Shown here piece by piece: positions 15,092 to 33,184 of a DNA stretch of 64,000 bases. Source of the stretch: Symbiopectobacterium purcellii (lineage in GTDB: Bacteria > Pseudomonadota > Gammaproteobacteria > Enterobacterales > Enterobacteriaceae); assembly GCF_019797845.1 (NCBI RefSeq), contig NZ_CP081864.1, positions 4,340,001-4,404,000 on the forward strand, written 5' to 3'. The first letter of the stretch is position 1. Each line of letters opens with the position of its first letter. Under the pieces are notes generated by a model. It was given only the letters and a program-made list of their open reading frames with translations. It ran no database searches and had not been told where the DNA came from. Both the position numbers and the translations under genes were made by a program.

Positions 15092-16057
15092 ATGCGCCAG
15101 ATGCAGGTTGAGACCGTCAAACTCTCTCTGGCACGCCCGTGCAAGCGTGCACAGGAATTGCGCAATGCCGTAAGCGTAGTCAGGATCACCGTTGAAGAAC
15201 AGGGATTTATCGGTTTAGGCGAATGTACGCCCGCGTTTGAATATCAAGAATCTGCCGCCAGTGTCTGCCGTCAACTTGACGCCGTGCGTGGTGCGGTTAC
15301 ACGTGGCGCGTCGAGGGATGAAATCCAAACGCTGCTCCCTCCTGGTGCAGCACGCAACGCACTCGATTGCGCACTGTGGCGCTTAAATGCGGCCCTGCAT
15401 AAACAAACCGTATGGCAGCAGGTGGGAATACAACCGCCTGCCTCGTTGATCACCACGGAAACGCTGAGCATTACGTCGTTGGAAAACACGGTGGCAGCCA
15501 CCCGCGATGCGATATCACGCGGGGCGCAGGTGATAAAGCTCAAACTGGATCGCAGCGACATCGTTGAGAAAATCGCCGCAGTGCGCGACGCCGCACCCCG
15601 TGCCACGCTGATGGTTGATGCCACGGAAAGCTGGGCTGGGCTCGATTTACTCAGCCTGTGTCACGCACTGCTCCCCTATAACATCGCGCTGATTGAGCAA
15701 CCGTTACCGGCAGGCAAAGATCAGGAGTTACTGCGTTTTTCGCACCCCATCCCTCTTTGCGCTGATGAAAGCTGTCGCCATGCCGGCGATATTCCCGGTA
15801 TCCGCCGTCGTTACGAGATGATCAACATCAAGCTGGATAAGTGTGGCGGATTGACAGAAGCACTGGCCATGGTGCGTGAAGCACGGCTCCATGGGCTAAA
15901 ACTGATGGTCGGTTGCCTGGTTGGCTCTTCACTGGCGATGGAAGCCGCACTACCGGTCGCTGCCGCCGCCGACTATGTCGATCTGGATGGCCCGCTCTGG
16001 CTGGCCGCCGACAGTTCACCCTACCTGACTTATCACCACGGACGCATCTGGCTATGA
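15092..16057 (+). CDS. ycjG: L-Ala-D/L-Glu (dipeptide) epimerase, enolase superfamily
   Basis: A 321-residue homologue of E. coli YcjG, which converts L-Ala-D-Glu from murein peptides to L-Ala-L-Glu. All active-site residues are in the expected places: K149 and K151 (KLK), metal ligands D176, E202 and D225, and K247 in INIKLDK. No signal peptide is present, so it acts in the cytoplasm. It is the first gene of a plus-strand operon: its TGA overlaps a possible ATG of the ABC ATPase gene. In E. coli it is paired with the murein peptide amidase mpaA; here it is paired with an importer and aminopeptidases. The start is the ATG at 15092 (GAGG 11 bases upstream). Confidence 0.92.
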   Translation: MRQMQVETVKLSLARPCKRAQELRNAVSVVRITVEEQGFIGLGECTPAFEYQESAASVCRQLDAVRGAVTRGASRDEIQTLLPPGAARNALDCALWRLNAALHKQTVWQQVGIQPPASLITTETLSITSLENTVAATRDAISRGAQVIKLKLDRSDIVEKIAAVRDAAPRATLMVDATESWAGLDLLSLCHALLPYNIALIEQPLPAGKDQELLRFSHPIPLCADESCRHAGDIPGIRRRYEMINIKLDKCGGLTEALAMVREARLHGLKLMVGCLVGSSLAMEAALPVAAAADYVDLDGPLWLAADSSPYLTYHHGRIWL

Positions 16058-16092
16058 CACAGCAAGAGTCCACACTGTTAACCGGAGTCCAC

Positions 16093-17961
16093 ATGACGCA
16101 ACTCGCACAGGCCACCCCGAACCCGGCGTCGGCCCCCCCACAAACCGCCCTGCCGGTGCTGGAGATCGATGACCTGAGCGTCAGCTTCAGCGGCAGGTCG
16201 GGCAAACATGTCGCCCTGAAAAGCGTCTCGTTTTCCGTTAACAAGGGGGAGATCGTTGCCATTGTGGGTGAGAGCGGCTCGGGAAAATCCGTGACGTCGT
16301 TAGCCGCGATGGGCTTGCTGGCCGGTTCTGCCGCCATTGAGCGCGGCAGCATGCATTTCCACTCCCGCCACGGACAGCGCCACGATCTGCTGAATATGAA
16401 AGAGGACGATCGCCGTCAACTGCGTGGACGCGATATGGCAATGATCTTTCAGGAACCGATGACCTCACTCAACCCAGTGTTGAAAGTGGGCGATCAGTTG
16501 ACGGAAGCGCTGCGCGACCATCAGCTTTGCGATACGGCCACCGCGCATAAAAAAGCGCGCGAGTTACTGCGTAAAGTGCGCATCGCGGATGTGGATCGTG
16601 TGATGAAAAGCTACCCGGCCTCCCTCTCCGGTGGCATGCGCCAACGCGTGATGATCGCGCAGGCGCTGGTATGCGAGCCGCAGTTGCTGATTGCCGATGA
16701 ACCCACCACCGCGCTGGATGTCACCGTACAAGCGCGCATTCTGCACATCCTGCGCGATCTCCAGCAGCAAAGTGATACTGCCGTGCTGTTTATTACCCAC
16801 GACATGGGCGTTGTCGCTGAAATCGCCGATCGCGTGGTAGTGATGTACCGGGGTGAAGTGGTGGAACAAGGTACGGTTGAGCAAATTTTCGCGCATCCGG
16901 AGCACCCTTATACTCAAGCCTTGTTGGCCGCAGTGCCGAAGCTGGGCGATATGCGTGACAGCGCCTGGCCGCGTCGTTTCCCGCTGCTGGGACAACAGCA
17001 ATCCAGCGATAGCGAACAGAAAACGGCGCGCTATGACGCAGAGCCGCTGCTGGACATCCGTGGTTTGCGCGTCTACTACCCGATCCGCAGCGGTATTTTC
17101 TCCGCGGTTACGCACCGCGTACATGCCGTCGAACAGATTGATTTTTGCGTGTGGCCCGGCGAAACCCTGGCGATTGTCGGGGAGAGCGGCTGTGGAAAAT
17201 CCACCACTGGGCGCGCACTGCTGCGCCTGATTCAGAGCGAATCAGAAAGTATTCTGTTTCAGGGCAATGAAATCTCCCTGATGGACGATCGCGCTTTTTT
17301 GCCGTTGCGCCGCGAAATCCAAATGGTTTTCCAAGACCCGTATGCGTCATTGAACCCGCGCTTAACCGTCGGTTTCACCATTGCTGAACCGCTGCTGCTG
17401 CACGGGCTGGCCCGATCGCTGGAGGACGCAACGCCCCGCGTGCAGGAACTGCTGAAAAGCGTCGGACTACCTCCCGAACACGCCCGTCGCTATCCGCACG
17501 AGTTTTCCGGCGGCCAGCGCCAACGTATCGCTATCGCCCGCGCCATGGCACTGCAACCTCAGGTCATTATTGCTGACGAAGCCGTCTCCGCACTGGATGT
17601 CTCGATTCAGGATCAGGTGGTAAACCTGATGATGGATCTGCAACAAAAAACCGGCGTGTCATGGATTTTCATTTCTCACGATATGGCCGTGGTCGAACGC
17701 ATCGCCAACCGCGTTGCCGTGATGTATCTCGGTCAGATTGTGGAAATCGGTCCGCGCCAGGCGGTGTTCAATAACCCTCAGCATCCTTATACGCAGCGTT
17801 TGCTGGCTTCGGTGCCGATTGCCGACCCTCAACAACGCAGCGTGCGCCAGTTTGATGACAGCGAGATCCCTTCCCCGCTGCGCAAGGCAGGCGAAGAGGT
17901 CAATAAAATGACCTATCGCGAAGTCGGCCCACACCACTGGGTCGCCAACGACAGTCATTGA
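16093..17961 (+). CDS. gsiA: Dipeptide/glutathione-type ABC importer, fused double ATPase (GsiA-like)
   Basis: A 622-residue protein with two nucleotide-binding domains, as in E. coli GsiA (623 residues). Domain 1: Walker A GESGSGKS at about residue 59, Q-loop IFQEPMTSLNP, signature LSGGMRQR, Walker B LLIADEPTTALD. Domain 2: Walker A GESGCGKS at about 363, VFQDPYASLNP, FSGGQRQR, VIIADEAVSALD. Each has the C-terminal oligopeptide-type extension (HPYTQALLA, HPYTQRLLA). It powers uptake through the two permeases downstream. I chose ATG 16093, with CGGAG 5 bases before it; an ATG at 16054 overlapping the epimerase stop would add 13 residues. Confidence 0.92.
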   Translation: MTQLAQATPNPASAPPQTALPVLEIDDLSVSFSGRSGKHVALKSVSFSVNKGEIVAIVGESGSGKSVTSLAAMGLLAGSAAIERGSMHFHSRHGQRHDLLNMKEDDRRQLRGRDMAMIFQEPMTSLNPVLKVGDQLTEALRDHQLCDTATAHKKARELLRKVRIADVDRVMKSYPASLSGGMRQRVMIAQALVCEPQLLIADEPTTALDVTVQARILHILRDLQQQSDTAVLFITHDMGVVAEIADRVVVMYRGEVVEQGTVEQIFAHPEHPYTQALLAAVPKLGDMRDSAWPRRFPLLGQQQSSDSEQKTARYDAEPLLDIRGLRVYYPIRSGIFSAVTHRVHAVEQIDFCVWPGETLAIVGESGCGKSTTGRALLRLIQSESESILFQGNEISLMDDRAFLPLRREIQMVFQDPYASLNPRLTVGFTIAEPLLLHGLARSLEDATPRVQELLKSVGLPPEHARRYPHEFSGGQRQRIAIARAMALQPQVIIADEAVSALDVSIQDQVVNLMMDLQQKTGVSWIFISHDMAVVERIANRVAVMYLGQIVEIGPRQAVFNNPQHPYTQRLLASVPIADPQQRSVRQFDDSEIPSPLRKAGEEVNKMTYREVGPHHWVANDSH

Positions 17962-18032
17962 TGAAACGCATTGATGAATAAGCCGTTTTAAACAACAACA
18001 ACGACAACCCATTCACAACCGGGAGACACAAC

Positions 18033-19574
18033 ATGAAGCCACTACGATATCGTTCCGCGCTGGCCCTCGGGCTTTCACTCTGTCTGGCCGCTGCGGCTCA
18101 GGCTCAAGATCTGCGCATCTCTATCTATGCCGATATTACCGGGCTCGACCCGCACGACACCTCAGATACCCTGAGCTACTCCATCCAGAGCGGTATCTTT
18201 GAGCGCCTGTTCCAGTTTGATAACCAAATGAAACTGTTACCGCGTCTGGCAACCGGATACACCAGCAATGACGATGCAACCGAGTTTGTGGTCACGCTGC
18301 GCGACGGCATCACCTTCCAGGACGGCGCGCCCTTTAATGCCGAAGCGGTCAAAGCCAACCTGGATCGCCTGGCCGATCAGAGCAAAGGCTTAAAGCGTAA
18401 TAGCCTGTTCAATATGGTAAAAACTGTCACCGTGCTGTCTCCGACACAGGTGAAGATTGAACTGAATAAATCATTCGGTGCTTTCGTCAACACACTGGCA
18501 CACCCGTCTGCCGTTATGCACAGCCCGGAAGCGCTGAAGAAATACCCGGATGAAGCACAACTGCGCGTCCACCCGGTCGGCACCGGTCCGTTTAAATTCA
18601 CCGAATGGCAACAGGGCAAAGACGTCAAGCTGGTCAAGAATGACAGCTACTGGCAAAAAGGCTGGCCGAAAGTGGATAGCGTGACCTTCTACCCGACGCC
18701 GGAAGACTCCACGCGCGTGGCAGCCCTGAAATCCAGTCAGGTTGATGCGATTTATCCGCTGCCGTCCGATCTGCTGGCTACCGTACAGAGCGACAGCAAA
18801 CTGGCCGTCCAACGCGACCCCGGTATCTATCAGTTCTGGTTGGCGATGAATAACCTGCGCCCGCCCATGAATGACATCCGCGTGCGTCAGGCACTCAACT
18901 ACGCCATCAACCGCGATGTGTGGCTGAAAGTCGGCTTTGCGGGCATGGGTACACCGGCAACGTCAGCCATGGCGCCGGGTGTTCAATTCTTCCACGCACA
19001 AACCACGCCGAGCTACAACTACGATCCGGCCAAAGCCAAAGCGCTGTTGAAAGAAGCGGGTTACCCGGATGGCATCAGCCTCAAGCTGTGGACCACTAAC
19101 CGCACCGATTACATCCGTAGCGCACAGTTCTTCAAACAGCAGTTGGAACAGGTAGGCATCAAGATCACCGTGACACCGATGGATTCCGGGATGCGTAACG
19201 CCAAACTGTTCGGCGTGAAAGACCCGAAAGAGGCGGAGTTCGATCTGTTCTACAACGGCTGGTCACCTTCTACCGGTGATGCTGACTGGGCGCTGCGTCC
19301 GCTGTATGCCACCGAGTCTTGGGTGCCTGCAGCTTATAACGTGGCCTACTACAGCAGTGCTGCCGCCGATAAAGCCATTATGGCTGGCTTGGCGACCGCC
19401 GATCTTGGCAAGCGCGCCGCCGCCTACGCCGAAGCACAGAAAGTGATTTGGGGTGATGCGCCCGTCGTGTTCCTGGGTACACCGGACAATCTGGTCGGTA
19501 AAGCGAAAAATCTCTCTGGCGTTTACATGCTGGCAGATGGCTCGTTGATCTTCGATCAGGCTGAATTTAAGTAA
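18033..19574 (+). CDS. gsiB: Periplasmic dipeptide/glutathione-type binding protein (GsiB-like)
   Basis: A 513-residue family 5 solute-binding protein. A Sec signal peptide (MKPLRYRSALALGLSLCL, cleavage after AAAQA) is followed by LRISIYADITGLDPHDTSD. HPVGTGPFKFTEW, VRQALNYAINR and the late FYNGWSPSTGDADWAL follow the E. coli GsiB pattern. It binds peptides in the periplasm and hands them to the permeases encoded next. It begins 71 bases after the ATPase gene with GGGAG 8 bases before its ATG. The actual ligand is unknown; operon partners suggest peptides with D- or iso-linkages. Confidence 0.9.
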   Translation: MKPLRYRSALALGLSLCLAAAAQAQDLRISIYADITGLDPHDTSDTLSYSIQSGIFERLFQFDNQMKLLPRLATGYTSNDDATEFVVTLRDGITFQDGAPFNAEAVKANLDRLADQSKGLKRNSLFNMVKTVTVLSPTQVKIELNKSFGAFVNTLAHPSAVMHSPEALKKYPDEAQLRVHPVGTGPFKFTEWQQGKDVKLVKNDSYWQKGWPKVDSVTFYPTPEDSTRVAALKSSQVDAIYPLPSDLLATVQSDSKLAVQRDPGIYQFWLAMNNLRPPMNDIRVRQALNYAINRDVWLKVGFAGMGTPATSAMAPGVQFFHAQTTPSYNYDPAKAKALLKEAGYPDGISLKLWTTNRTDYIRSAQFFKQQLEQVGIKITVTPMDSGMRNAKLFGVKDPKEAEFDLFYNGWSPSTGDADWALRPLYATESWVPAAYNVAYYSSAAADKAIMAGLATADLGKRAAAYAEAQKVIWGDAPVVFLGTPDNLVGKAKNLSGVYMLADGSLIFDQAEFK

Positions 19575-19592
19575 TCGCACGGGGAGAACGCC

Positions 19593-20513
19593 ATGTTTGC
19601 TTATATCGTCCGACGTTTGCTGGAAATGATCCCGGTGCTACTGGTGGTCTCCCTGTTAGTGTTCGGTTTTATCAAGCTGTTACCCGGCGATCCGGCGCGG
19701 ATTTATGCCGGGCCGGATGCCCCGATTGCCGCCGTGGAGGCCGCTCGCCAACTGTTAGGGCTCAACGATCCGTTGCCGCAGCAGTATGTTCGTTGGCTGG
19801 GTGGCTTGTTGCGCGGCGATCTGGGCATCACCTATCGCACGCAGCAACCCGTGATGGACGTGATCGCCAAAAGCTTTATGCCCACCATGTGGCTGGCGCT
19901 GGCAGGCTTCGCCTGGTCAGTGGTACTCGGCCTGTTGATTGGCGTGGTATCGGGACTAAAACGTGGAAAGTGGCAGGATTGGACGCTGATGAGCGCCGCT
20001 GTCGGCGGTATCTCCATGCCACCTTTCTGGCTCGGATTGCTGCTGATCCAGTTTGTGGCGATGCCGTTCGGGGTGTTTTCCGTCAGCGGTTTTAACCAGC
20101 CGAGCGATATTGTGTTACCCGCTCTGACGCTGGGTGCTTCCGTGGCCGCGGTGATGGCGCGCTTCACCCGCTCCGCCTTCCTTGAAGTGGCACAGGAAGA
20201 TTATGTCCGTACCGCACGATCTAAAGGATTACGCCAACGGCTGATCACCTGGAAGCACATCATGCGCAATGCGCTGATCCCCATCATCACCATGCTCGGC
20301 CTGCAATTTGGTTTTCTGCTGGGCGGTTCGATTGTGGTGGAAAGCGTCTTCAGTTGGCCCGGATTGGGCTGGCTGCTGATTGAATCGATCAAAACGCAGG
20401 ACCAGCCGGTGATTCAGGCGCTGGTCATGCTGTTTGTGTTCGAGTTTATTGTTATCAACCTGCTGGTCGACCTGCTCTACGCCGTGGTTAACCCAGCCAT
20501 TCGTTTACGCTAG
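19593..20513 (+). CDS. gsiC: Peptide ABC importer permease (GsiC/DppB-like)
   Basis: A 306-residue inner-membrane permease of the BPD_transp_1 type. The N-terminus (MFAYIVRRLLEMIPVLLVVSLLVFG) is the usual first membrane segment. About six membrane segments follow. The EAA loop that contacts the ATPase is seen in VRTARSKGLRQRLITWKHIMRNALIPI, and the family ending ADLLYAV-type sequence appears as VDLLYAVVNPAIRLR. It starts 18 bases after the binding-protein gene and ends 8 bases before the second permease gene. Confidence 0.92.
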   Translation: MFAYIVRRLLEMIPVLLVVSLLVFGFIKLLPGDPARIYAGPDAPIAAVEAARQLLGLNDPLPQQYVRWLGGLLRGDLGITYRTQQPVMDVIAKSFMPTMWLALAGFAWSVVLGLLIGVVSGLKRGKWQDWTLMSAAVGGISMPPFWLGLLLIQFVAMPFGVFSVSGFNQPSDIVLPALTLGASVAAVMARFTRSAFLEVAQEDYVRTARSKGLRQRLITWKHIMRNALIPIITMLGLQFGFLLGGSIVVESVFSWPGLGWLLIESIKTQDQPVIQALVMLFVFEFIVINLLVDLLYAVVNPAIRLR

Positions 20514-20521
20514 GAGCGATC

Positions 20522-21424
20522 ATGAGCCACGCTACCGATCCCACGATGACCGCCGCCGCGCAGGATAACGCCACCATCCGTTCACCGATGCGTGATTTTT
20601 GGCAGGCTTTTATCCAAAACCCGCTGGCGCTGGTGTCCGGCGGATTTATTCTGCTCTTGGTGCTGGTCGCGGCCTTCGCCCCTTGGCTAGCCCCTTATAA
20701 CCCGATGGACCCGGATTGGATGGCACTGTCCGCACCGCCTTCCGCCAGCCATTGGATGGGGACCGACGATCTGGGACGCGATGTGATGAGCCGTATTATC
20801 TACGGTTCGCGCATCTCCTTATATATTGGTCTGTTTTCCGTCACGCTTGGCATGGTTGTCGGCATTGTATTGGGTCTGCTGGCCGGGTTTTATGGCCGCT
20901 GGATTGATATGCTGATCATGCGTAGCGCCGATGTGCTGTTCGCCTTCCCCGGTATGCTGCTGGCTATCGCGGTGGTCGCCATTCTCGGCCCTGGCTTGAA
21001 TAACGTGATTATCGCCGTCGCAGTATTCAGCGTGCCGGTGTTCGCACGTATCGTACGCGCTTCTGCCTTAACCCTGAAACAAGCCGCCTACGTGGAGGCG
21101 GTGCGCAGTGCCGGTGCGCCGGATCGCATCTTGCTGATCCGCCATATTCTGCCTGCCACCTTGCCGAACGTGATCGTCTATTTCACCATGCGCATTGGTA
21201 CCAGTATTCTCACGGCGGCCAGCCTGAGCTTTATCGGTCTTGGCCCTGAGCCAGATGTGCCTGAGTGGGGGAATATCCTCGCGATGAGCCGCAGCATGAT
21301 GATGGCCGGTCAATGGCACGTCAGTGTCTTCCCCGGTCTGGCGATTTTCTTCACCGTGCTGTCATTCAATTTGTTAGGCGACGCCTTGCGCGATACGCTG
21401 GACCCAAAACTGAAGAATGCATGA
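20522..21424 (+). CDS. gsiD: Peptide ABC importer permease (GsiD/DppC-like)
   Basis: A 300-residue inner-membrane permease, partner of the preceding one. An N-terminal cytoplasmic tail leads to the first membrane segment (ALVSGGFILLLVLVAAFAPWLAPY). MGTDDLGRDVMSRIIYGSR is the hallmark of DppC-type subunits, and the EAA loop is in YVEAVRSAGAPDRILLIRHILP. It closes with NLLGDALRDTLDPKLKNA, the standard ending. The start could also be the ATG at 20546. Its stop overlaps the region where the P1 peptidase gene begins, indicating one operon. Confidence 0.92.
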   Translation: MSHATDPTMTAAAQDNATIRSPMRDFWQAFIQNPLALVSGGFILLLVLVAAFAPWLAPYNPMDPDWMALSAPPSASHWMGTDDLGRDVMSRIIYGSRISLYIGLFSVTLGMVVGIVLGLLAGFYGRWIDMLIMRSADVLFAFPGMLLAIAVVAILGPGLNNVIIAVAVFSVPVFARIVRASALTLKQAAYVEAVRSAGAPDRILLIRHILPATLPNVIVYFTMRIGTSILTAASLSFIGLGPEPDVPEWGNILAMSRSMMMAGQWHVSVFPGLAIFFTVLSFNLLGDALRDTLDPKLKNA

Positions 21425-21431
21425 GAATCCT

Positions 21432-22447
21432 ATGATGGCTTTTCAACAGGCGCAGCTGCACGCCCTATTGCAGCGCTGGCGTGACCACCAGCAAGTCGGC
21501 GTGCCACGTATGCCCAGCGGCCCAGGCAACAGCCTGTGCGATGTGCCTGGCGTGCGCGTTGGGCATGAAACGCTGGCGCAGGGCGAAGTACAAACCGGCG
21601 TTACTGCCATTGTGCCGCCCAGTGACAACCTGTTTACGCAGCCGCTGCCGTGCGGTGCCGCGGTTCTGAACGGTTTTGCCAAACCGGTGGGATTGGTCCA
21701 AGTGGAAGAGCTGGGGCAACTGCAAACCCCGATCCTGCTGAGTAATACGTTGGCTATCGGCACACTGTTTACCACGCTGGTGCGCGACGCGATTGCCAAA
21801 AACCCTGAACTCGGGCGCTCGCTGCCGACGGTGAATCCGCTGGCGCTGGAATGCAATGACGGCTGGCTGAACGACATTCAGGCATTGGCGGTGACGGAAG
21901 CCATGGCGCAGGCCGCCCTGAGCAAGGCAGATACCCACTTTGCACGCGGCAGCGTCGGTGCCGGGCGCGGTATGAGCTGCTTCGGTCTGAAAGGCAGTAT
22001 CGGCACCGCATCTCGTCTGATTCCCGAACTGAATGCCACGTTGGGTGTGTTGGTGCTGGCCAATTTTGGCACGCTGGCATCGCTCACGCTGGACGGACTA
22101 CACATCGGCCCCTTTATTGAACCGCTGCTGCCCGAGTTGGCACCACAACGCGATGCGGGGTCAATTATCATCATTATGGCAACCGATGCACCGTTGGATG
22201 CGCGCCAGCTTGGGCGCATCGCCAAACGCGCCGGTGCCGGACTGGGCCGTCTGGGCAGCTATTGGGGCCACGGTTCTGGCGACATCGCCGTCGCGTTTTC
22301 CACCCAGCCCACGCCGCCGCCGATGCCACAGAACATGCCGTACTGGATGCCCTGCTGTGCGCCGAGGCGGTGAGCGGTTTTCGCGGCCACCACCGTCCAG
22401 ACTTGCGACAGGTGTTAGATAGTCTTGCACAACACGTTTTAGCGTAA
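21432..22447 (+). pseudogene. P1 family (DmpA/S58) aminopeptidase, interrupted by a -1 frameshift
   Basis: Homologue of DmpA-type L-aminopeptidase/D-esterases and beta-aminopeptidases, self-processing Ntn-like hydrolases. The first 290 or so residues are normal: CDVPGVRVGHETL, GVTAIVPPS, GSVGAGRGMSCFGLKGSIGTASR (auto-cleavage region) and GRLGSYWGHGSGDIAVAFST. Then the frame runs to a TGA at 22371-22373. The expected family C-terminus (HAVLDALLCAEAVSGFRGH ... LDSLAQHVLA) lies in the next frame and ends with TAA at 22445-22447, 10 bases before dppA, exactly where an operon gene should end. One base is missing near 22300-22310. Start at ATG 21432 or 21435, four bases after a GAG. The 1016-bp length is consistent with loss of one base. 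Confidence 0.8.
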
Positions 22448-22457
22448 GGACATACCC

Positions 22458-23279: not shown

Positions 23280-23294
23280 TAACAGGGAGATGAC

Positions 23295-24257: not shown

Positions 24258-24267
24258 CGTACAGGTA

Positions 24268-24294
24268 GCGGAATGCCCTGTGCTGGCATTCCGC
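24268..24294. terminator. Hairpin between the two convergent peptide operons
   Basis: GCGGAATGCC-CTGTGCT-GGCATTCCGC is a perfect 10-bp stem with a 7-base loop, 11 bases after the iaaA stop and 24 before the stop of the opposing hydrolase gene. No T run follows closely. GAAGTATGACGGGTATA just beyond (24300-24316) matches the end of the repeat family at 13903 and 59101. Confidence 0.55.
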
Positions 24295-24317
24295 AACGTG
24301 AAGTATGACGGGTATAT

Positions 24318-25838
24318 TTACGCCCAGTGAACGTCCCCACGCCGCGCCGTCACCACCCGACTGCGGTTAAGCAAAAACGTCATGTTGTTGCCTTCGATAT
24401 GCAACGCAAAGCGTTTCTCCCACGGGCCGTCCTGCGCGGTCGCCAATAGCCGACCTTGACCCAAACACTCCAGCGACGCAACCGGCGCCGAGGGGCCAAT
24501 TCCCATCACCAGGCGGTCGCCTTCAATCACCCATTCACTGCGCCATTCCGGACAGAACCAGCGGCCTTGCGCTTGCGCGAGAGAATCATCGCGATGTGGC
24601 AGCACAAAGCGTTTGGTGGCATGGCCTATTTCACCCTCAATCACTGTCCCTTTCTGACGCAGCTGCATCGGCAAATGGCTGGAGAGCGATATCGCTCCGT
24701 CCTCTGACGGATAGAGCGTTTCGGTCGCGCCCAACCAGCAGGCGTTGTTGCCACTGATTTCCAGCCACTCGCTGCCGTTTTCCGCCACATACAGCCCCGG
24801 CATCAGCGCATGGCCCGGTTGCGGTAACGCTTGCCCGGTCAGCGCCGCCATGATGCGCAGTGCACAATCATAGGTTGACACGTCCTCACGGTTTGCCACC
24901 AGCGCCAGCCCCACACCACGCTGCGGATCGAGCAGAAAATAGCTCTTATAACCCGCATGAGAACCCCCGTGGCCGACCCAGTGCGCATCACCAAAACGTG
25001 AATGAGCAACCCCTAAACCATAGCCAGTCACGCGGCCATCCGTTAGCTGGCGCGGTGCAGTCAGGCGCGCCACTACCCCGCGCCCCGGCCCCTCATCGCG
25101 CAATAGCGTTTGCAACCAGGTGCTCAAATCACGCACGCTGCCCGCCACACTGCCGGACGCAGAAAGATGTAGCCCGGCGCTTGCCAGTTGCCAACCGCTG
25201 TCGCTGCGCCAATACCCCGGCACCAACCCAGGCACAATATCAAACCAGGTTTCCGGTGCGAACAGGTGGATATCTAAGGGTTGGCAAATATGCTGCTGCA
25301 AGCGTTCGGCAAACAAAATGCCCTTGGCTTTCAACGCCTCCTCCACCAGCCGATAGCCGGTATTGGAATAGGAAATTTCACTGCCTGCCGGGTAGTTCAA
25401 CTTATCCAGCGCAGCAACAAACGCCAGCAAATCATCAGATTGCGTGGCGTTGTAGACCGATAACCCAAGCAACGATAGCGTTTCACGCAAATCGTGCAAC
25501 CCGGCCGTCATATCCAACGCCTGACCGACGGTAACCTGCCCGCTCGGGCCACGCAGTTGGGGCAGATGCTGCGCCAACCGGTCGTCGAGTGCGATAACCT
25601 CTGCTAACGGCCCGGTGACCAACGAAGCAAATATATGTTTGGTTACCGAGGCAAAACGCACCACGCTATCCGCGCTGAATGGCGTGCCTTGCGCCAGGTC
25701 AGCCAGACCGCCGCAGCTTAACGCCCGTAACTGATTGCCATCAAACAGCGCAATTGCGCCGCCGGGCTGCCCCTCTCCCTGCCATTGCGCCGTGATGGAC
25801 TGCGCCACCTCCGTCGCCCGCTGCCAATCAAGCGTCAT
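24318..25838 (-). CDS. S12-family serine hydrolase, D-aminopeptidase (DAP)-like
   Basis: A 506-residue penicillin-recognising serine hydrolase. The catalytic SxxK is SVTK in RFASVTKHIFA, YSNTGY supplies the YxN motif, and GHGGSHAGY the third (HxG) motif. After the catalytic domain (to about residue 330) come two beta-rich parts, matching the three-domain layout and roughly 520-residue length of D-aminopeptidase DAP from Brucella (Ochrobactrum) anthropi. No signal peptide is visible, so it is cytoplasmic and not a beta-lactamase of the usual type. Its ATG overlaps the TGA of the upstream ABC ATPase gene (ATGA), so it is translationally coupled to the importer. D-stereospecific peptide cleavage is the likely role, inferred from family and context. 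Confidence 0.8.
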   Translation of the reverse strand: MTLDWQRATEVAQSITAQWQGEGQPGGAIALFDGNQLRALSCGGLADLAQGTPFSADSVVRFASVTKHIFASLVTGPLAEVIALDDRLAQHLPQLRGPSGQVTVGQALDMTAGLHDLRETLSLLGLSVYNATQSDDLLAFVAALDKLNYPAGSEISYSNTGYRLVEEALKAKGILFAERLQQHICQPLDIHLFAPETWFDIVPGLVPGYWRSDSGWQLASAGLHLSASGSVAGSVRDLSTWLQTLLRDEGPGRGVVARLTAPRQLTDGRVTGYGLGVAHSRFGDAHWVGHGGSHAGYKSYFLLDPQRGVGLALVANREDVSTYDCALRIMAALTGQALPQPGHALMPGLYVAENGSEWLEISGNNACWLGATETLYPSEDGAISLSSHLPMQLRQKGTVIEGEIGHATKRFVLPHRDDSLAQAQGRWFCPEWRSEWVIEGDRLVMGIGPSAPVASLECLGQGRLLATAQDGPWEKRFALHIEGNNMTFLLNRSRVVTARRGDVHWA

Positions 25839-26575
25839 GCGGGTTCCTCCAATGCGATACTCAATGCATACAACTCAGCGGTATGAGGATGTTGAATCTG
25901 CCCGGCACGTAGCTGCTCGGCGCTCAGGCTTTCTACCATCTCTCCTTGCTGCATCACCCCCACCTGCTCGCACAAGTGGGTCACCACGGCCAGATTATGG
26001 CTCACCATCAGGTAGGTCAGCTTACGCTCCTGCCGGATATCTGCCAGCAGATTCAAGATTTCAGCCTGTACCGATACATCCAGCGCAGAGGTCGGTTCAT
26101 CCAACAGCAGCACTTCCGGCTCGACAATCAGCGCCCGAGCAATGGCAACGCGTTGGCGCTGTCCACCTGACAACTGGTGCGGGAAACGAAAACGCACCGC
26201 CGCAGGCAGCCCCACATCATCCAGCATTTTGGCAATGCGTTGCTCAGCATTATCGACGCAGTGCACCAACAGGGGCTCTTGTAAAATGCGATCGATGGTT
26301 TGGCGCGGATGAAGAGAACCATAAGGGTCTTGAAATACCATCTGCACTTGGCGGAAGAAGTCCCGCCCGCGTTTGGCGCCGAGGGCCATGCCCCCGAACA
26401 GCATCTCACCCTGCCAGTTATCGTTCAAACCGGCCAGCGCGCGCAGAATGGTCGATTTACCGGAACCGCTCTCGCCAACAATGCCAAAACTGCCGCCACT
26501 CTCTACCTGAAAAGAGACGCCCTTGACCACCTCGGTAGCGCCAAAAGCGATACGCAAGTTATTTAAGGTAATCAT
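25835..26575 (-). CDS. Peptide ABC importer ATPase (DppF-like)
   Basis: A 246-residue ATPase: Walker A GESGSGKST, Q-loop VFQDPYGSLHP, signature LSGGQRQR, Walker B VLLLDEPTSALD, and the H-loop region MVSHNLAVV. It is the second ATPase of a DppBCDF-type importer, shorter at the C-terminus than E. coli DppF. I chose the ATG at 26575, which overlaps the TGA of the preceding ATPase gene (ATGA). It in turn overlaps the S12 hydrolase gene by 4 bases, so three genes are coupled. Confidence 0.9.
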   Translation of the reverse strand: MITLNNLRIAFGATEVVKGVSFQVESGGSFGIVGESGSGKSTILRALAGLNDNWQGEMLFGGMALGAKRGRDFFRQVQMVFQDPYGSLHPRQTIDRILQEPLLVHCVDNAEQRIAKMLDDVGLPAAVRFRFPHQLSGGQRQRVAIARALIVEPEVLLLDEPTSALDVSVQAEILNLLADIRQERKLTYLMVSHNLAVVTHLCEQVGVMQQGEMVESLSAEQLRAGQIQHPHTAELYALSIALEEPA

Positions 26576-27402
26576 CCGTTTTTCCACGCCTCATCACGTT
26601 TCATTACCGGCAGCCGTTCACGCGGGTGTTTCAGTGACGGCAAACAGGCCAACAGTCCCTGGGTATACGGGTGCTGCGCAAGCTGGAGATCTTTGGCGGC
26701 CAGCATCTCCACCACCCGCCCGGCATACATCACCGCCACGCGATCGCAGAAATGCGACACCAGCGGCAGGTCATGGCTGATCAAAATCAGCCCCATGCCA
26801 CGCTGTGAGACCAGATCGTCGATCAGCTTGAGGATATCGGCCTGCACTGTGGCATCCAATGCGCTGGTGGGCTCGTCCGCAATCAGCAGTTCCGGGTCAG
26901 GCGCCAGCATCATGGCGATCATCGCCCGTTGCCCCATCCCGCCGGACACCTCATGCGGATAGCGTGCGGCCACCTGCTGCGGTTCGCGAATGCGCACCTG
27001 CTCTAACAAATCGGTGGCTGCCGCCAGCGCGGCACGGTGCGAGCCGCCCTTATGCTCACGCCATGCTTCAGCGATCTGTTGACCAATCGTCATCACCGGA
27101 TTGAGGGAGTATTTCGGGTCTTGCAGAATAAAGCCCACCCGCTTGCCACGAATACGACGTAAGGTTTTTTCATCCGCGCCGCGCAAATCGATGCCGTCAA
27201 AGCTAAGCTTATCCGCCTCCACGCGCGCACTGCCGGGCAGCAGTTGCATCAGGCTGCGTGCCGTCAGAGATTTGCCTGAACCGCTCTCCCCGACAATCGC
27301 GAATTTCTCTTTGCCAATACTCAGCGAAACGCCACGCACCGCTTCAAACGTCTGTGTACGGCTCGCGAACGTAATACGCAAGTTTTCAATTTCCACCAAC
27401 AT
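26572..27402 (-). CDS. Peptide ABC importer ATPase (DppD-like)
   Basis: A 276-residue ATPase of a peptide/nickel-type importer: Walker A GESGSGKS, Q-loop ILQDPKYSLNPV, signature VSGGMGQR (one substitution from the usual LSGGMRQR), Walker B LLIADEPTSALD, H-loop LISHDLPLV, and the HPYTQGLLACLPSL tail typical of oligopeptide ATPases. The ATG directly follows the TAA of the permease gene, and its stop overlaps the next ATPase start. Confidence 0.9.
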   Translation of the reverse strand: MLVEIENLRITFASRTQTFEAVRGVSLSIGKEKFAIVGESGSGKSLTARSLMQLLPGSARVEADKLSFDGIDLRGADEKTLRRIRGKRVGFILQDPKYSLNPVMTIGQQIAEAWREHKGGSHRAALAAATDLLEQVRIREPQQVAARYPHEVSGGMGQRAMIAMMLAPDPELLIADEPTSALDATVQADILKLIDDLVSQRGMGLILISHDLPLVSHFCDRVAVMYAGRVVEMLAAKDLQLAQHPYTQGLLACLPSLKHPRERLPVMKRDEAWKNG

Positions 27403-28305
27403 TTAGCGCTCCTTCGGGTCCAGTACGTCACGCAAACCGTCACCCAAAAAGTTAAACGCCAGCGAGGTCATGAAAATGGCGATACACGGCACCAACGGCA
27501 CCCACCATTCGGAGAATAAGAAACGTCGCGCAGTAGCAATCATGGTGCCCCATTCCGGCGAAGGCGGCTGTGCCCCCATGCCGAGAAAGCCCAGACTGGC
27601 CGCCGTGATGATGATAGAACTCATATCCAGCGTGATACGCACCACCAGACTCGGCACGCAGAGCGGCATAATGTGGCGCACGATAATGCGCAACGGCGTC
27701 GCCCCAGTGAGCTTGCAGGCAGCGATAAAATCACTGTGGCGAAACTGCATGGTTTCCGCCCGCGCCAGGCGCGCATAGGGCGGCCAGGACGTCAGCGCAA
27801 TCGCCAAGATGGCGCTCTCGACACCGGGCTTCAACGCAGCAACAAACGCCAACGCCAGAATCAATCGGGGGAAGGAGAGGAAAATATCCGTTACGCGCAT
27901 CAGGGTTTTGTCTACCCAGCCACCGGCATACCCGGCGACACAGCCAATCAATAACCCTAGCGGCGCGGTCAGCACCACTACGGCGATCACCATGCCGAGG
28001 GTGGTACGACCGCCATACAGAATACGGGTGTAGATATCACGCCCCAATTCATCCGTGCCGAACCAATGGGCAGCAGAAGGCGGTGCCAATCGGTTGGCCA
28101 GATCCTGAAATCCCGGCTGATAAGACGTCAGCCAAGGCGCGAGAGATGACAATACCAGTACAGCCAGAATCACCACCAACCCGATCATTGCCATCGGATT
28201 AGTCTGTAGCCCCAACCATAAGCGATAACGTCGCCCCCAGATGGCCTGACGGCGCGTCGCGGGCGTTTCGTCGAGCAACCATGCTCGTGAGACAGGAAAA
28301 ATCAT
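27403..28305 (-). CDS. Peptide ABC importer permease (DppC-like)
   Basis: A 300-residue inner-membrane permease. MAMIGLVVILAVLVLSSLAPWLTSY is the first membrane segment, FGTDELGRDIYTRILYGGR the DppC-type hallmark, and FIAACKLTGATPLRIIVRHIMP the EAA loop. It ends NFLGDGLRDVLDPKER. I chose the ATG at 28305 because it overlaps the TGA of the preceding permease (ATGA); an upstream GTG at 28323 is less likely. Adjacent to the ATPase gene with no gap. Confidence 0.9.
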   Translation of the reverse strand: MIFPVSRAWLLDETPATRRQAIWGRRYRLWLGLQTNPMAMIGLVVILAVLVLSSLAPWLTSYQPGFQDLANRLAPPSAAHWFGTDELGRDIYTRILYGGRTTLGMVIAVVVLTAPLGLLIGCVAGYAGGWVDKTLMRVTDIFLSFPRLILALAFVAALKPGVESAILAIALTSWPPYARLARAETMQFRHSDFIAACKLTGATPLRIIVRHIMPLCVPSLVVRITLDMSSIIITAASLGFLGMGAQPPSPEWGTMIATARRFLFSEWWVPLVPCIAIFMTSLAFNFLGDGLRDVLDPKER

Positions 28306-29312
28306 TTTACGCGCGGGTCCCAAAGTCGATAGAGAATGTCAGCCAGCAAATTGAGCAGCACGTATACGGTGCCCACCAGCAACGTGGCACCAATCACCGG
28401 ATTCATGTCAGCGTTCATCAATGCCGTGGTGAGGTATTGACCTAGCCCCGGCCAGGCGAACACGTTTTCCGTGACCACCGCCCCTTCCAACAGCCCGGCA
28501 TAGGTCAGTGCCAATACGGTCACCAACTGCACCGCAACGGTCGGAAAGGCGTGACGCCAGATAACCCGACGCGACGACAGCCCTTTGGCGCGCGCGGTAA
28601 TGACGAATTCACCGCTCAACGCATTGAGCATGAAGGTACGTGTCATACGGGTGATATACGCCATACTGAAATAGGCGAGGATCAAGACCGGCTGCGCCAT
28701 GTGTGCCAGCGCGTCGTGAAAGGCGGCGTAATCCCGCGCCAACAGCGAATCCACCGTGAGCAAGCCAGTGACCTGCGGCACCATATCCTGAAAAATGATG
28801 TCCTGACGCCCCGGCCCCGGCGCAATGCCGAGTACGGCATAGAAGATAAGCAAGCTAAGCAGTGCCAGCACAAACACGGGCAACGAGTGCCCCGCCAGAC
28901 AAACCATACGAATGGTTTGATCGACCCAAGTACTCTGCCTCACTGCGGCCCACACGCCGAGTGGAATACCGACCAGCGCCGCGATAATGATAGCGGCGGT
29001 AGCCAGCTCCAGCGTAGCCGGGAAGAAACGCGCGATATCCGTCATCACGGGATTGGACGTAAGGATCGAATTGCCGAGATCGCCGTGCAACAGTTGCGAA
29101 AGATAGCGGCCAAACTGCACCCACAGGGGCTGATTCAGCCCCATCTCTTCACGCACGCGTTGCACCACGTATTCCGGCGCATTGTCCCCCACCATCGCCA
29201 ACACCGGATCGGTGGGCATGATGCGACCGATAAAAAAGGTCAGCACCGACAGCCCCAACAGCGTGAGCAGCAAGCTGCCCAGGGTACTGAGAATACGTTT
29301 TGCTATCAGCAT
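28302..29312 (-). CDS. Peptide ABC importer permease (DppB-like)
   Basis: A 336-residue inner-membrane permease. The N-terminal segment LLLTLLGLSVLTFFIGRIMP is followed by TDPVLAMVGDNAP and the YVQRVREEMGLNQPLWVQFGRYL stretch typical of DppB proteins. The EAA loop is FVITARAKGLSSRRVIWRHAF. It ends LADILYRLWDPRVK. Its ATG shares one base with the TGA of the binding-protein gene, and its end overlaps the next permease. Confidence 0.9.
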   Translation of the reverse strand: MLIAKRILSTLGSLLLTLLGLSVLTFFIGRIMPTDPVLAMVGDNAPEYVVQRVREEMGLNQPLWVQFGRYLSQLLHGDLGNSILTSNPVMTDIARFFPATLELATAAIIIAALVGIPLGVWAAVRQSTWVDQTIRMVCLAGHSLPVFVLALLSLLIFYAVLGIAPGPGRQDIIFQDMVPQVTGLLTVDSLLARDYAAFHDALAHMAQPVLILAYFSMAYITRMTRTFMLNALSGEFVITARAKGLSSRRVIWRHAFPTVAVQLVTVLALTYAGLLEGAVVTENVFAWPGLGQYLTTALMNADMNPVIGATLLVGTVYVLLNLLADILYRLWDPRVK

Positions 29313-30907
29313 CAGGCTTTTTTCACCTGATCGTACGGGTTGTCACGCAGTACCGTCATGTTCACACCGCTGATGTTTTTGCGGCAGGCAATCGGCAAGG
29401 TGTTTTGCATCAGGAAAATAAACGGGCTGTGCTCACGGTGCTCACGCTGGATGGTTTCATACAGCGCGATACGCTTGGCGGAATAGCTTTCATGCAACGC
29501 CTGCTCGGTTAACGTGTTGAATTTTTCGTCAGACCAGCCGCAGCGCCATGCCAGAGTACGGCTGCGCGCATTTTCCGTGTTATCGAGATTGACGCAGAAC
29601 GCTTCGGTGTTCGAATTGGGATCGAAATAGTCAGCGCCCCAGGCCGTGATCGCCAATTGGTGCTGGCGGGCACGCATTTTGGTCAACACCGCGCGGTTTT
29701 CAGAAGAGACCAACTTCGCCTTGATCCCCACGGCACCCAGTTGAGTCTGGATGGCCTGCGCGATATCCGGATAGGGCTGTGCAGAGTAGTGATCGATGGT
29801 GATCTCGAACCCATCGGGATAACCCGCTTCTGCCAACAGCGCTTTCGCCTTGGCCACATCCTGATGGAACGGCGTATCGTCCAGTGCCGCAGGGAAGCCG
29901 CCCGGCAGGAAGCTCTGATGCACGCGGTGCGTCAGTGGAATGATGTTTTTCTGAATGGCGTCATAATCAATCGCCCATTTCAGCGCCTGCCACACCTGCG
30001 GTTTTTTCAGTAATTCATTGGTGGTGTTGCACGACATTAGCATGATGGTCGAAACGTCACGACGGATCACATTGAACTCAGGGTCGTTGACGATCGGGCG
30101 CAGTTGTTCGCTGGTCAGATCGCGCGCGATATCCACATCCCCTTTTTGCAGCATCAGCAACTGTGCCGCAGGGTCGGTGATGTGCTTCATGATCACGCGC
30201 TGAATTTTGCTGTCGGTCTGGAAGTGGGTGTTCTTCTCCAGAATGATGCTTTCGCTCGCTTTCCAACTACGCAGCGTGAACGGGCCAGACCCGGCACTGT
30301 GCTGTTTAATCCAGGCGTAGCCGAAATCGCCGTCCTGTTGGTTCGCCAGCGCGGCTTTCTTCTGCACGATGCTGCCCACTGGCGCAGAGAGGCAATAGAG
30401 CAGGAAAGATTCTGCCGCCGGCTTGTCCAGGTTCAGCACCAGCGTACTGGCATCCGGCGCGGTGATGTGCTGCTCCACGTTATCCTTGGTGAAGCCGAAC
30501 TGGTTGATAATGAAGGCGGGGCTTTTATCCATTTTAACCGCACGCTGTAACGAGAACGCTGCATCTTCTGCGGTAACTGGCGTGCCATCGGAAAATTTTG
30601 CTTTTGGATCAATATGGAAGGTAAAGGTCTTACCGTCGTTGCTCACTTCCCAGTGCGTGGCCAACTCGCCTTTCACTTCGCTGGGTTTCAACGGGTTTGG
30701 CATGACCAGACGCTGGTAGAGGTTACCCACAATCTCAGAGCCTACCGCTTCAAAACTTTCATGGGGATCAAGGCTGGTCATGTTATCCAATTGCATCGCC
30801 ATCACCAGCATGGTGGGAGGCGTGGCAGCAAAAGCGGAGTGCAGGTTCAGATAGGATAAAAAAGGTACGGCGCCGCAACCGGCGAGAAAACGTCTCCTGG
30901 TAAGCAT
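29312..30907 (-). CDS. Peptide-binding protein of the second importer, with a Tat-type signal
   Basis: A 531-residue family 5 solute-binding protein. The N-terminus MLTRRRFLAGCGAVPFLSYL has a twin-arginine motif (TRRRFLAG) followed by a moderately hydrophobic stretch and a cut site after SAFA, so export folded by the Tat route is predicted. A cysteine at residue 11 sits inside the signal, not in a clear lipobox. The mature part has TSLDPHESFEAVGSEIVGNLYQ, SAGSGPFTLRSW and WGADYFDPNS, all typical of SBP_bac_5. TTGAGGG is 5 bases upstream of the ATG. First gene of the minus-strand importer operon; ligand unknown. Confidence 0.88.
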   Translation of the reverse strand: MLTRRRFLAGCGAVPFLSYLNLHSAFAATPPTMLVMAMQLDNMTSLDPHESFEAVGSEIVGNLYQRLVMPNPLKPSEVKGELATHWEVSNDGKTFTFHIDPKAKFSDGTPVTAEDAAFSLQRAVKMDKSPAFIINQFGFTKDNVEQHITAPDASTLVLNLDKPAAESFLLYCLSAPVGSIVQKKAALANQQDGDFGYAWIKQHSAGSGPFTLRSWKASESIILEKNTHFQTDSKIQRVIMKHITDPAAQLLMLQKGDVDIARDLTSEQLRPIVNDPEFNVIRRDVSTIMLMSCNTTNELLKKPQVWQALKWAIDYDAIQKNIIPLTHRVHQSFLPGGFPAALDDTPFHQDVAKAKALLAEAGYPDGFEITIDHYSAQPYPDIAQAIQTQLGAVGIKAKLVSSENRAVLTKMRARQHQLAITAWGADYFDPNSNTEAFCVNLDNTENARSRTLAWRCGWSDEKFNTLTEQALHESYSAKRIALYETIQREHREHSPFIFLMQNTLPIACRKNISGVNMTVLRDNPYDQVKKA

Positions 30908-31107
30908 GAATCCCTCAACTTATTGATATATTTAACAATTAATTGGATTTTATTTCATATCCAGCCTTGACATAGTCAAACGGGATTGGCTTAAATGAAC
31001 GCACCAGGACATCCATTCCCTGCGCAATCATTTGTCCATTTTGGGGCAACGTGCACCTTAATGGGGCAAATACCGTTTCATCGCATCCTGAGCCGATAAC
31101 TTTGAAT
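30908..31107. promoter_or_regulatory. Divergent promoter region between importer and M19 dipeptidase genes
   Basis: Two hundred bases separate the binding-protein start (minus) and the dipeptidase start (plus). The left half is AT-rich (TTAACAATTAATTGGATTTTATTTCAT). It should contain promoters for both transcripts, and the nearby LysR regulator is the natural candidate to act here. I could not define a clear T-N11-A box. Confidence 0.4.
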
Positions 31108-32187
31108 ATGTCTAACAATTTCCTAACGGGTACGCAACGCCCTTTCCCTGTTTTTGACGGGCATAACGATGTTTTATTACGCCTTTATTCCTCCCACCGG
31201 GAGGATGCGGTCAATGCCTTTCTACAAGGCCCAGCCGCCGGTCAAATCGATTTGCCGCGTATCCGACAAGGGGGACTGGCTGGCGGATTATTCGCCGTTT
31301 ATGTCCCATCCCCTAAAGACCCAGCAAAATCTGTACCAGAAAACGACAGTTTGTTTGTAAACCATGCGACACCGTCGATGGAATCTGCCAGAGAGATAAC
31401 CTTTTCAATGATTTCCACGCTGTTGCGCATTGAGGCGGCCTCCGCTGGGCAAGCCAAAATTTGCCACAGCGTAGCCGATATTCGTCACTGCATGGCGACG
31501 GAAACCCTGGCGATGGTGTTGCACATTGAAGGTGCAGAGGCACTCGACCCCGATCTGGAACTGCTTGATATCCTTCACGCAGCGGGTTTACGCACCCTGG
31601 GTCCACTCTGGAGTCGACCGAATATCTTCGGCGACGGCGTACCGTTTCGCTTCCCTTCTTCAGCCGATATCGGTTCCGGGCTGACGGAAACCGGCCTGCG
31701 TCTGGTGAAAGCCTGTAACGCCAAACGCATCATGGTGGATTTGTCGCACATGGATGAAAAAGGGTTCTGGCAGACCGCTCGCATCAGCGATGCCCCGCTG
31801 GTTGCCAGCCACTCCAACGCCAATGCACTCTGCGCGCAGTCCCGCAATCTGACAGACAAACAGCTGGATGCCATTCGTGAAAGCAACGGCTTTGTCGGCG
31901 TGAATTTCGGTACTGCGTTCCTGCGCGCCGATGGTAAAAAAGACCCGAACGCCACGGTGGAAGAGATTGTCCGCCACGTCGATTACCTGCTCAACAAGCT
32001 GGGAGAAGACGGCGTCGGTTTCGGTTCCGATTTCGATGGCACCACCGTGCCGCCAGACCTGCATGATGTCGCAGGGCTGCCACTCCTGGTCGACGCACTG
32101 ACGCGACGCGGATACGATCGCCCATTGCTGGAAAAAATCTGCTACGGCAACTGGTTGCGTGTACTGGAAGCCACCTGGGGTAAATAA
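31108..32187 (+). CDS. M19 membrane-dipeptidase-family peptidase
   Basis: A 359-residue zinc dipeptidase of the renal dipeptidase (M19) family, which cleaves L,L- and L,D-dipeptides. Metal-site motifs are present: FDGHNDVLLR (H-x-D), VLHIEGAEAL (bridging glutamate), LSHMDEKGFW, ASHSNANALC and GFGSDFDGT. There is no signal peptide, so it is cytoplasmic like other bacterial members. I chose the ATG at 31108 (MSNNFLTGTQRPFPVFDGH); an in-frame GTG at 31051 would add 19 residues without homology. It is divergent from the second importer and followed by a LysR gene 88 bases on. Confidence 0.88.
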   Translation: MSNNFLTGTQRPFPVFDGHNDVLLRLYSSHREDAVNAFLQGPAAGQIDLPRIRQGGLAGGLFAVYVPSPKDPAKSVPENDSLFVNHATPSMESAREITFSMISTLLRIEAASAGQAKICHSVADIRHCMATETLAMVLHIEGAEALDPDLELLDILHAAGLRTLGPLWSRPNIFGDGVPFRFPSSADIGSGLTETGLRLVKACNAKRIMVDLSHMDEKGFWQTARISDAPLVASHSNANALCAQSRNLTDKQLDAIRESNGFVGVNFGTAFLRADGKKDPNATVEEIVRHVDYLLNKLGEDGVGFGSDFDGTTVPPDLHDVAGLPLLVDALTRRGYDRPLLEKICYGNWLRVLEATWGK

Positions 32188-32275
32188 CCACGGGCCAAAG
32201 TATCGGGTGGCGTGGATATTGCATGGAATTTGCTCAAGGTGAAATGATGACCTAACCAACACGGAGCACCTGTCC

Positions 32276-33184
32276 ATGCGTTTACGCCACATCGAAATCT
32301 TTCAGGCTATTCTTCAGGCTGGCACCATCAGCGGTGCTGCCCGCTTGCTGAACGTTTCGCAGCCGAACGTCAGCCGGGTGCTCAATCATGCGGAGCAACA
32401 GCTGGGATTTGCCCTGTTTGAACGCGGCGCGCAGGGCATGGTGGCAACACGCGAAGGGCGACGTCTGATCCCCGAAGTACAGGAGCTTTACATCCATCTG
32501 CAAGCCATTGGTTCACTGACGGAACAGATGAGACGCAATCGGGTACAAACGGTGCGGTTAGGGGCGGCGCATGCGTTTAGCCAAATGGTGGTTGCACCCA
32601 CCATGGTGGAATTTCACAAGCAAGAAGCGCGTGTCAACGTAGAGCTGGTGACCGAGCACTTCTCCACGCTGTGTCAAAATATCCTGCAAGACCAACTCGA
32701 TTTTGCGCTGGTCTTTGGTCAACAAGTACCCGCAGCCCTGCTGGCTGAGCCGCTGTTTCAAGCCTATATGGTCGCTGTGTTGCCCAAAGACAGCCCACAG
32801 AATGGTCCGGTATCGCTGGAGTGGCTCTGTTCCAATAACCTGCTGATGATGCAGCAGCAAGACCCGTTAGGCCAGGTGCTGCACCGTGCGTTGCGCGCCA
32901 AAGGGCTCACGCCGATGTCATCGGTGTATATTAAAACCTACTCGGTAATTGCCGACATGGTACTGGCAGGCGGCGGTGCGGGTATCGTCGATCTGTTTAC
33001 CGCGCATCGCTATGCCGATATGTTGAAAATTGTACCGATCGCACAGCCGCTGCCGTTCGAGGTGACGCTGATCAGCCGTCGCGACAACCCACAATCACGC
33101 GCCGCATTGCAATTGAAGCAACTGATGAAAAACAAGTGCTGGGAAATTGCCCGACAAAACGAAGGTCTGTTTCACGCCGCATAA
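32276..33184 (+). CDS. LysR-family transcriptional regulator
   Basis: A 302-residue LysR-type regulator. The N-terminal winged helix (MRLRHIEIFQAILQAGTISG, then AARLLNVSQPNVSRVLNHAE) is followed by the linker helix and an effector domain (VRLGAAHAFSQMVVAPTMVEF, then QDQLDFALVFGQ). Similar N-termini occur in regulators of amino acid or opine catabolism. By position at the end of the peptide block it probably controls the divergent importer and dipeptidase genes, responding to a peptide or amino acid. That role is inferred, not seen. Confidence 0.88.
   Translation: MRLRHIEIFQAILQAGTISGAARLLNVSQPNVSRVLNHAEQQLGFALFERGAQGMVATREGRRLIPEVQELYIHLQAIGSLTEQMRRNRVQTVRLGAAHAFSQMVVAPTMVEFHKQEARVNVELVTEHFSTLCQNILQDQLDFALVFGQQVPAALLAEPLFQAYMVAVLPKDSPQNGPVSLEWLCSNNLLMMQQQDPLGQVLHRALRAKGLTPMSSVYIKTYSVIADMVLAGGGAGIVDLFTAHRYADMLKIVPIAQPLPFEVTLISRRDNPQSRAALQLKQLMKNKCWEIARQNEGLFHAA

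Follow-up and report, generated by a model that had tools for sequence, protein, structure and literature searches.

What is the function of the long run of peptide-utilization genes lying between rph and yicC on the chromosome of Symbiopectobacterium purcellii, and do these genes form a single system? The window analyzed here is a stretch of 64,000 nucleotides from contig NZ_CP081864.1, which belongs to a 4.94 Mb genome assembled as a single contig. The block in question, at positions 15092-33184 of the window, contains 16 annotated genes, encoding an enolase-superfamily epimerase, two ATP-binding cassette (ABC) peptide importers, five hydrolases of different families and a LysR-family regulator, and is flanked by rph (minus strand, start at about 14874, placed by eye) and yicC (33301). 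An earlier reading of the sequence (the original prediction) had described it as one import-and-degrade system for murein-type or other D-amino-acid peptides, and the gene content and positions given by that reading were all correct. We consider the block to be a composite locus for the use of small D-amino-acid peptides, most likely peptides containing D-glutamate (D-Glu), with a probability of about 0.55. It consists of two linked modules rather than one system. Module A comprises epimerase-gsiABCD-S58-M55, usually with lysR, whereas module B comprises the M19 dipeptidase gene, divergent from the genes for a binding protein, permeases, ATPases and an S12 hydrolase.

Operon A (plus strand) consists of the genes for the epimerase (15092-16057), a GsiA-like double ATPase (16093-17961, start placed by eye), a GsiB-like binding protein (18033-19574), GsiC-like (19593-20513) and GsiD-like (20522-21424) permeases, a P1/S58 (DmpA-type) peptidase (21417-22373), an M55 (DppA-type) D-aminopeptidase (22458-23279) and an IaaA-type isoaspartyl peptidase (23295-24257), in that order. 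Among 119 genomes of the same family, 17 carried M55; S58 adjoined M55 in all 17 (as fragments in G104), and gsi genes did so in 12. Eighty loci were examined, of which 77 came from scanning named genomes and the others were the window and two stretches of plasmid DNA; each covered about 10 kb on either side, and all counts refer to genes within these stretches. S58 and M55 were both present at 77 loci (not at L065, L101 and L133), and the complete epimerase-gsiABCD-S58-M55 set was present at 65, with lysR at 63 of these (not at L069 and L072). The complete loci lay beside rph in 27 cases, leading us to reject a placement peculiar to this genome, and elsewhere, including on plasmids, in 38. 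The iaaA gene was found at exactly the 27 complete loci beside rph; an exception to this rule is genome G043, with a divergent iaaA gene close to module A at a different site. Module A is carried by plasmids pKPN_CZ (Klebsiella pneumoniae, typed as conjugative) and pEA320 (Pantoea ananatis), and M55 sequences with 60-80% identity occur in 35 plasmid records. As in E. coli, rph and yicC usually adjoin each other where module A is missing: of 24 further yicC regions fetched, all from genomes lacking module A at this site, 23 had no insert between the two genes. In the remaining region (G057), module B and lysR lie inside, with module A and part of rph about 135 kb away. Alphaproteobacterial versions of the module were found in Azospirillum and Skermanella (transaminase-gsiABCD-P1-M55-IaaA) and in Shinella (D-aminopeptidase-P1-M55).

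Some loci had features of their own. In two Ca. Symbiopectobacterium genomes, 'North America' and endolongispinus (L065 and L131; S58 was not found in L065), several genes of the block are fragmented, as is seen in decaying symbiont genomes. A gene resembling fumarylacetoacetate hydrolase lies between M55 and S12 in L089 (L089:10936-11772), with a similar gap or gene in other Pantoea loci. The block is present at 92-99% identity in L132 (JADMXW010000015.1), the label of which, Serratia marcescens 1001295B, is probably wrong.

The neighbours of both modules include D-amino-acid genes: dgcN-dgcA in Enterobacterales and a D-amino-acid transaminase gene in alphaproteobacteria. The persistence of module A as a unit and the presence of such neighbours beside both modules support the import and degradation of D-amino-acid peptides as a function. 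At 45 of the 65 complete loci of module A, the epimerase gene was preceded by dgcN, of a family named after D-glutamate catabolism (DUF1611 in Pfam; 525 bits to NF041892, against a cut-off of 480, for the one protein tested), and the aligned end of dgcN lay 3-11 bases from the epimerase gene at all 47 loci with both genes. It was absent from the window locus and from all 20 complete loci of Symbiopectobacterium, Pectobacterium, Brenneria and Samsonia, and also from loci holding little beyond S58-M55, such as those of Serratia and Vibrio. In a tree of 43 epimerases, the 14 block sequences lacking dgcN required one change (support 91/97; 90% of bootstrap trees). A segment of 20-25 bases matching the start of dgcN persisted at four of five Brenneria loci (E values from 0.004 to 1.6e-6) and was not found at the fifth Brenneria locus, two Pectobacterium loci, the Samsonia locus or the window. 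The single change on the tree, together with the Brenneria remnants, favours the loss of dgcN in one clade, containing Pectobacterium, Samsonia, Brenneria and Symbiopectobacterium.

The partner left behind by this putative loss has itself changed. Residues K149, K151, D176, E202, D225 and K247 of the window epimerase, which we take to be the catalytic lysines and metal-binding acids, are all in place, in agreement with the claim of an intact active site, but a conserved loop of its relatives has been lost. Two of these lysines are also given in a study of YcjG and YkfB activities (PMC5808125). This N-terminal loop, with the pattern F-x-I-(S/A)-R-G-x-(R/K), occurs in the aligned YcjG, in three DgcA proteins and in five block relatives, including that of Brenneria, and is replaced in the window epimerase, its sister in L064 and Pectobacterium. 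The window epimerase scored below the cut-offs for both YcjG (NCBIfam PRK15129, 324.9 against 343 bits) and DgcA (NCBIfam NF042940, 377.3 against 400 bits), whereas three dgcN-linked orthologues exceeded both. Plain decay was rejected, as the ratio of nonsynonymous to synonymous substitution rates (dN/dS) for this gene was 0.04 against L132 and 0.03 against L064, the two sister genomes. The changed loop and the low dN/dS values suggest a substrate shift under selection in the window/Pectobacterium lineage. The ancestor of the epimerase may have belonged to a D-Glu racemase pair and not have been a murein dipeptide epimerase.

The importer of module A raises another possibility: this module could be an expanded version of the iaaA-gsiABCD operon, taking up glutathione or gamma- or beta-linked peptides, which the extra peptidases would trim. 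Gsi and IaaA are the best family names, among solved structures YliB/GsiB (1uqw) is nearest to the binding protein, and the order iaaA-gsiABCD-S58-M55 is found in G046. However, all four subunits missed the Gsi equivalog cut-offs (832.5 against 1077 bits for GsiA, 486.4 against 594 for GsiB, and 388.5 against 463 and 396.9 against 484 for the other two), and the genome has a separate gsi operon, the GsiB of which is 43% identical to that of the block. On these grounds, identity with the canonical glutathione importer was rejected. Glutathione or iso-peptide use would also leave the neighbouring dgcN, M55 and transaminase genes unexplained, and we regard it as quite unlikely. The block shares a homologous importer and IaaA with the enterobacterial iaaA-gsiABCD operon, differing from it in sequence and in the joining of these genes to those for the epimerase, S58 and M55. 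The gsiB gene of the separate, canonical-like gsi operon (G000:C1:1659935-1661437; L161:5891-7450) has an in-frame TGA codon, and an open copy is present in G022, from the same genus. The usual order in E. coli places iaaA before gsi. In all five block-bearing genomes considered (L161-L165), the separate gsi operon was without iaaA within the 12-13 kb fetched, and iaaA may have been transferred from that operon into the block.

The products of the block belong to the families originally named. The nine proteins scanned exceeded the Pfam gathering scores for MR_MLE (the epimerase), SBP_bac_5 (two proteins), Peptidase_S58, Peptidase_M55, Asparaginase_2, Beta-lactamase (S12), Peptidase_M19 and LysR, and both ABC sets were identified with NCBIfam. 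Six enzymes lacked a strongly hydrophobic N-terminal stretch, consistent with the predicted lack of signal peptides, and the leaders of the two binding proteins, read by eye, were Sec-like in one case and twin-arginine-like in the other. The activities named for the families are those generally attributed to them or follow the names of the models matched. In M55 (PF04951, 319 bits), D8, E10, H60, H105, H116 and E135, presumably the zinc site, align with 1hi9; this protein is 97-98% identical to those of Candidatus Symbiopectobacterium strains, the nearest named relatives of this genome, and scored below the cut-off of the Bacillus-type equivalog NF058634 (173.4 against 430 bits). IaaA (PF01112) has its nucleophile, T187, after a glycine, at the start of the beta subunit, and fell below the PRK10226 cut-off (493 against 567 bits). 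The S12 hydrolase (PF00144) contains the SxxK, YxN and HxG motifs (S64-V-T-K, Y157-S-N and H290-G-G) and is distantly DAP-like, scoring far below the cut-off of the DAP model PRK13128 (93.7 against 443 bits). The best solved relatives of the M19 dipeptidase (PF01244, 326 bits) are 3ly0 and 3fdg. The dN/dS values for the window genes against the two sister genomes were 0.01-0.07, S58 excepted.

D-Glu is a typical residue of murein, though it is also part of microcystin. Murein is a plausible, though hypothetical, substrate. The real substrate might instead be non-murein peptides with D-residues, such as nonribosomal peptides or the cyclic toxins of other microbes. The broad hydrolase set and the plasmid carriage are compatible with this idea, as is a list for Blastomonas fulva, in PMC9505733, in which M55 and dipeptide/glutathione-type ABC genes with close locus tags are tabled as candidates for microcystin degradation; our comparison covers these genes only. 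Against it stands the dgcN-dgcA pair, the name of which refers to D-Glu and the presence of which suggests D-Glu peptides. We regard a non-murein substrate as unlikely.

Module B is a second importer-peptidase cassette. Operon B (minus strand) contains the genes for a binding protein with a twin-arginine-like leader (29312-30907; PF00496, 284 bits), DppB-type (28302-29312) and DppC-type (27403-28323) permeases, OppD/DppD-type (26572-27402) and OppF/DppF-type (25835-26587) ATPases and the S12 hydrolase (24318-25838). The M19 gene (31051-32187, plus strand, start uncertain) is divergent from it and is followed by lysR (32276-33184, plus strand). This cassette was complete at 25 of the 65 complete module A loci, with lysR following M19 at 24 and preceding S12 in Hafnia; the Hafnia order was also found in Acerihabitans, in which no epimerase was found. 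At the other 40 loci, no complete module B was present within the stretch. The two modules were unlinked in three genomes, lying about 770 kb apart in G115 and on different contigs of the drafts G035 and G024. In G112 (L166, G112:C10:67500-86500), dgcN-epimerase-S58 adjoins module B and both gsiABCD and M55 are missing, as would be expected had the first importer been replaced by the second. Seven alphaproteobacterial regions with M19 and S12, chosen from hit lists, were mapped (L154-L160): a D-amino-acid transaminase gene was present in six (not in Pseudochrobactrum), S58 was present in four, and L160 had no transporter matches between M19 and S12. Cassettes with the order of module B (M19/binding protein-permease-permease-ATPase-ATPase-S12) and 44-79% identity were found in Microvirga, Paracoccus, Neorhizobium, Pseudochrobactrum and Ensifer; unlike that of the window, they mostly have a D-amino-acid transaminase gene, and in Microvirga M55-gsiDCBA, L-asparaginase II and module B lie side by side. 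S12 matches stand alone in Pseudoroseomonas and Phyllobacterium and lie near another transporter in Ketogulonicigenium. Module B is therefore separable, yet joined to module A or S58 in several arrangements, in alphaproteobacteria as well.

The regulatory sequences also differ between the modules. A palindromic LysR-type (T-N11-A) box lies upstream of module A, at 14993-15009, and was the only match to the pattern in the window (0.04 expected) and in the genome carrying it, at up to one mismatch. Of eight genomes searched at the same stringency, seven had a match at the block; the sole match in G014 was elsewhere, and G097 had one additional match. The reversed control pattern gave one match each in G057 and G114. 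The box was present with 0-3 mismatches in all 70 module A upstream regions scored, against 4-8 mismatches in 300 simple shuffles, these counts coming from related species and hence not being independent. Its position and co-occurrence with lysR suggest that the regulator acts at this putative operator. The box was missing from all 29 module B promoters (5-7 mismatches), and a single regulon for both modules through this box was rejected. Inspected by eye, the promoter region at 30907-31051, from which the genes for the second binding protein and M19 diverge, shows a separate conserved TTGACA element; some loci also have a GGTGC-GCACC palindrome there. Scans of 14800-15300 for sigma-70 promoters and terminators gave no matches for either.

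The proposal of a single system is not supported, because 40 of the 65 loci lacked a complete module B within the stretch, module B was unlinked in three genomes and its promoters had no LysR box. The scattering in relatives named in the original prediction as speaking against it was thus observed for the two modules in G115, G035 and G024, but not for module A. At the extreme, the block could be a loose collection of peptidases and peptide transporters that accumulated at a site prone to insertions, with no joint pathway. The frequent absence or separation of module B and the restriction of iaaA to module A loci beside rph, among the 65 complete named loci, would fit such a collection. However, the gene order of module A recurs at various chromosomal locations, on plasmids and in a further bacterial class, the box lies upstream at 70 of 70 loci and the genes are under purifying selection. 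We therefore consider a chance assemblage very unlikely.

Several observations weigh against the assignment of the block to the use of D-Glu peptides. No murein-specific endopeptidase is present among the block genes. S58 (PF03576, 305 bits) has a Gly-Ser cleavage site, G248-S249, aligning with that of DmpA (1b65), but a 43-bp deletion relative to the two sister genomes shifts the frame after Ser249, yielding a protein of 318 rather than about 350 amino acids, without the full-length C-terminal part; the five hydrolase families predicted are thus all present, but one enzyme is shortened. At 3.06 Mb, the same genome has another dgcN-dgcA pair, accompanied by a class-IV transaminase gene and without peptide genes; dgcN-dgcA also occurs without peptide genes on Vibrio and Pseudoalteromonas plasmids, and dgcN without an adjoining dgcA on a Sinorhizobium plasmid. 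The DgcA and YcjG models do not separate the two activities, because E. coli YcjG also exceeds the DgcA cut-off of NF042940 (424.1 bits), and naming of the epimerase from NCBIfam alone was rejected as unspecific. The block epimerases grouped with YcjG rather than with three DgcA proteins (98/94; tree unrooted, with long branches), which counts against a plain DgcA label. Finally, the alphaproteobacterial regions were all taken from hit lists, and their linkage counts stand without a chance expectation.

Under the D-Glu peptide reading, the Gsi-type importer of module A, controlled by the neighbouring LysR regulator, would bring in peptides, from which cytoplasmic S58 and M55 aminopeptidases, with IaaA for iso-linked residues, would free amino acids. 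Ancestrally, DgcN would acetylate free D-Glu and DgcA would invert the product; more generally, D-Glu would be handled by DgcN-DgcA inversion, where present, or by transamination. Module B, with its second importer, S12 peptidase and M19 dipeptidase, would widen the range of peptides used. Given the apparent loss of dgcN and the retention of an epimerase with an altered loop, the enzyme of the window lineage probably inverts a residue within a dipeptide (such as L-Ala-D-Glu) or acts on another N-acyl amino acid, and free D-Glu would be routed to the second dgcN-dgcA-transaminase operon. More tentatively, and at somewhat less than even odds, the locus can be viewed as a horizontally spread, locally regulated unit for D-peptide catabolism, combining a Gsi-clade importer, two D-aminopeptidases and DgcN-DgcA, the position of the latter being taken in alphaproteobacteria by a D-amino-acid transaminase. 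On this view, a second importer-peptidase cassette would have joined the unit more than once, and in Pectobacterium and Symbiopectobacterium the racemase would have outlived DgcN and been re-specialized.

Related systems share parts of this arrangement. The M55 enzyme DppA belongs to the dpp locus of Bacillus subtilis, and its solved structure is the only relative of the block M55 found in the PDB. In B. subtilis (PMC2954226), the ykf genes, which include that for an epimerase, lie next to dpp, a dipeptide ABC operon; the block has no YkfA- or YkfC-type peptidase among its 16 annotated genes, has two importers and adds S58, IaaA, S12, M19 and LysR, and its relatives add dgcN. The D-glutamate pathway formed by DgcN and DgcA, as given in PMC10845958, is echoed by the dgcN-dgcA pair placed first in the operon in block relatives, but peptide import is attached to it here and dgcN is missing from the window. 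No description of the combination was found in the literature covered (titles, abstract starts and term counts, most subscription journals lying outside this coverage). Beyond yicC, an open reading frame of 904 amino acids (34823-37537, minus strand) has, by eye, the look of an inverse-autotransporter adhesin, and past it the G+C content falls to 34-40% (37000-40000).

Every component family is already known; what may be new is their assembly, the modularity of the locus, the tie between dgcN-dgcA and peptide import, and the loss of the epimerase's partner with a shift in the enzyme itself. If our reading is correct, it connects dgcN-dgcA with a source of peptides. It would also provide a testable function for genes annotated as 'P1 family peptidase', 'M55 family metallopeptidase' and 'glutathione transporter' where these are linked, as they are on chromosomes of enterobacteria and on plasmids of Klebsiella and Pantoea. 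The loss of dgcN with the change in the epimerase loop would constitute a natural experiment on substrate shift in an enolase-superfamily racemase, and the single LysR box would provide a handle for finding the inducer.

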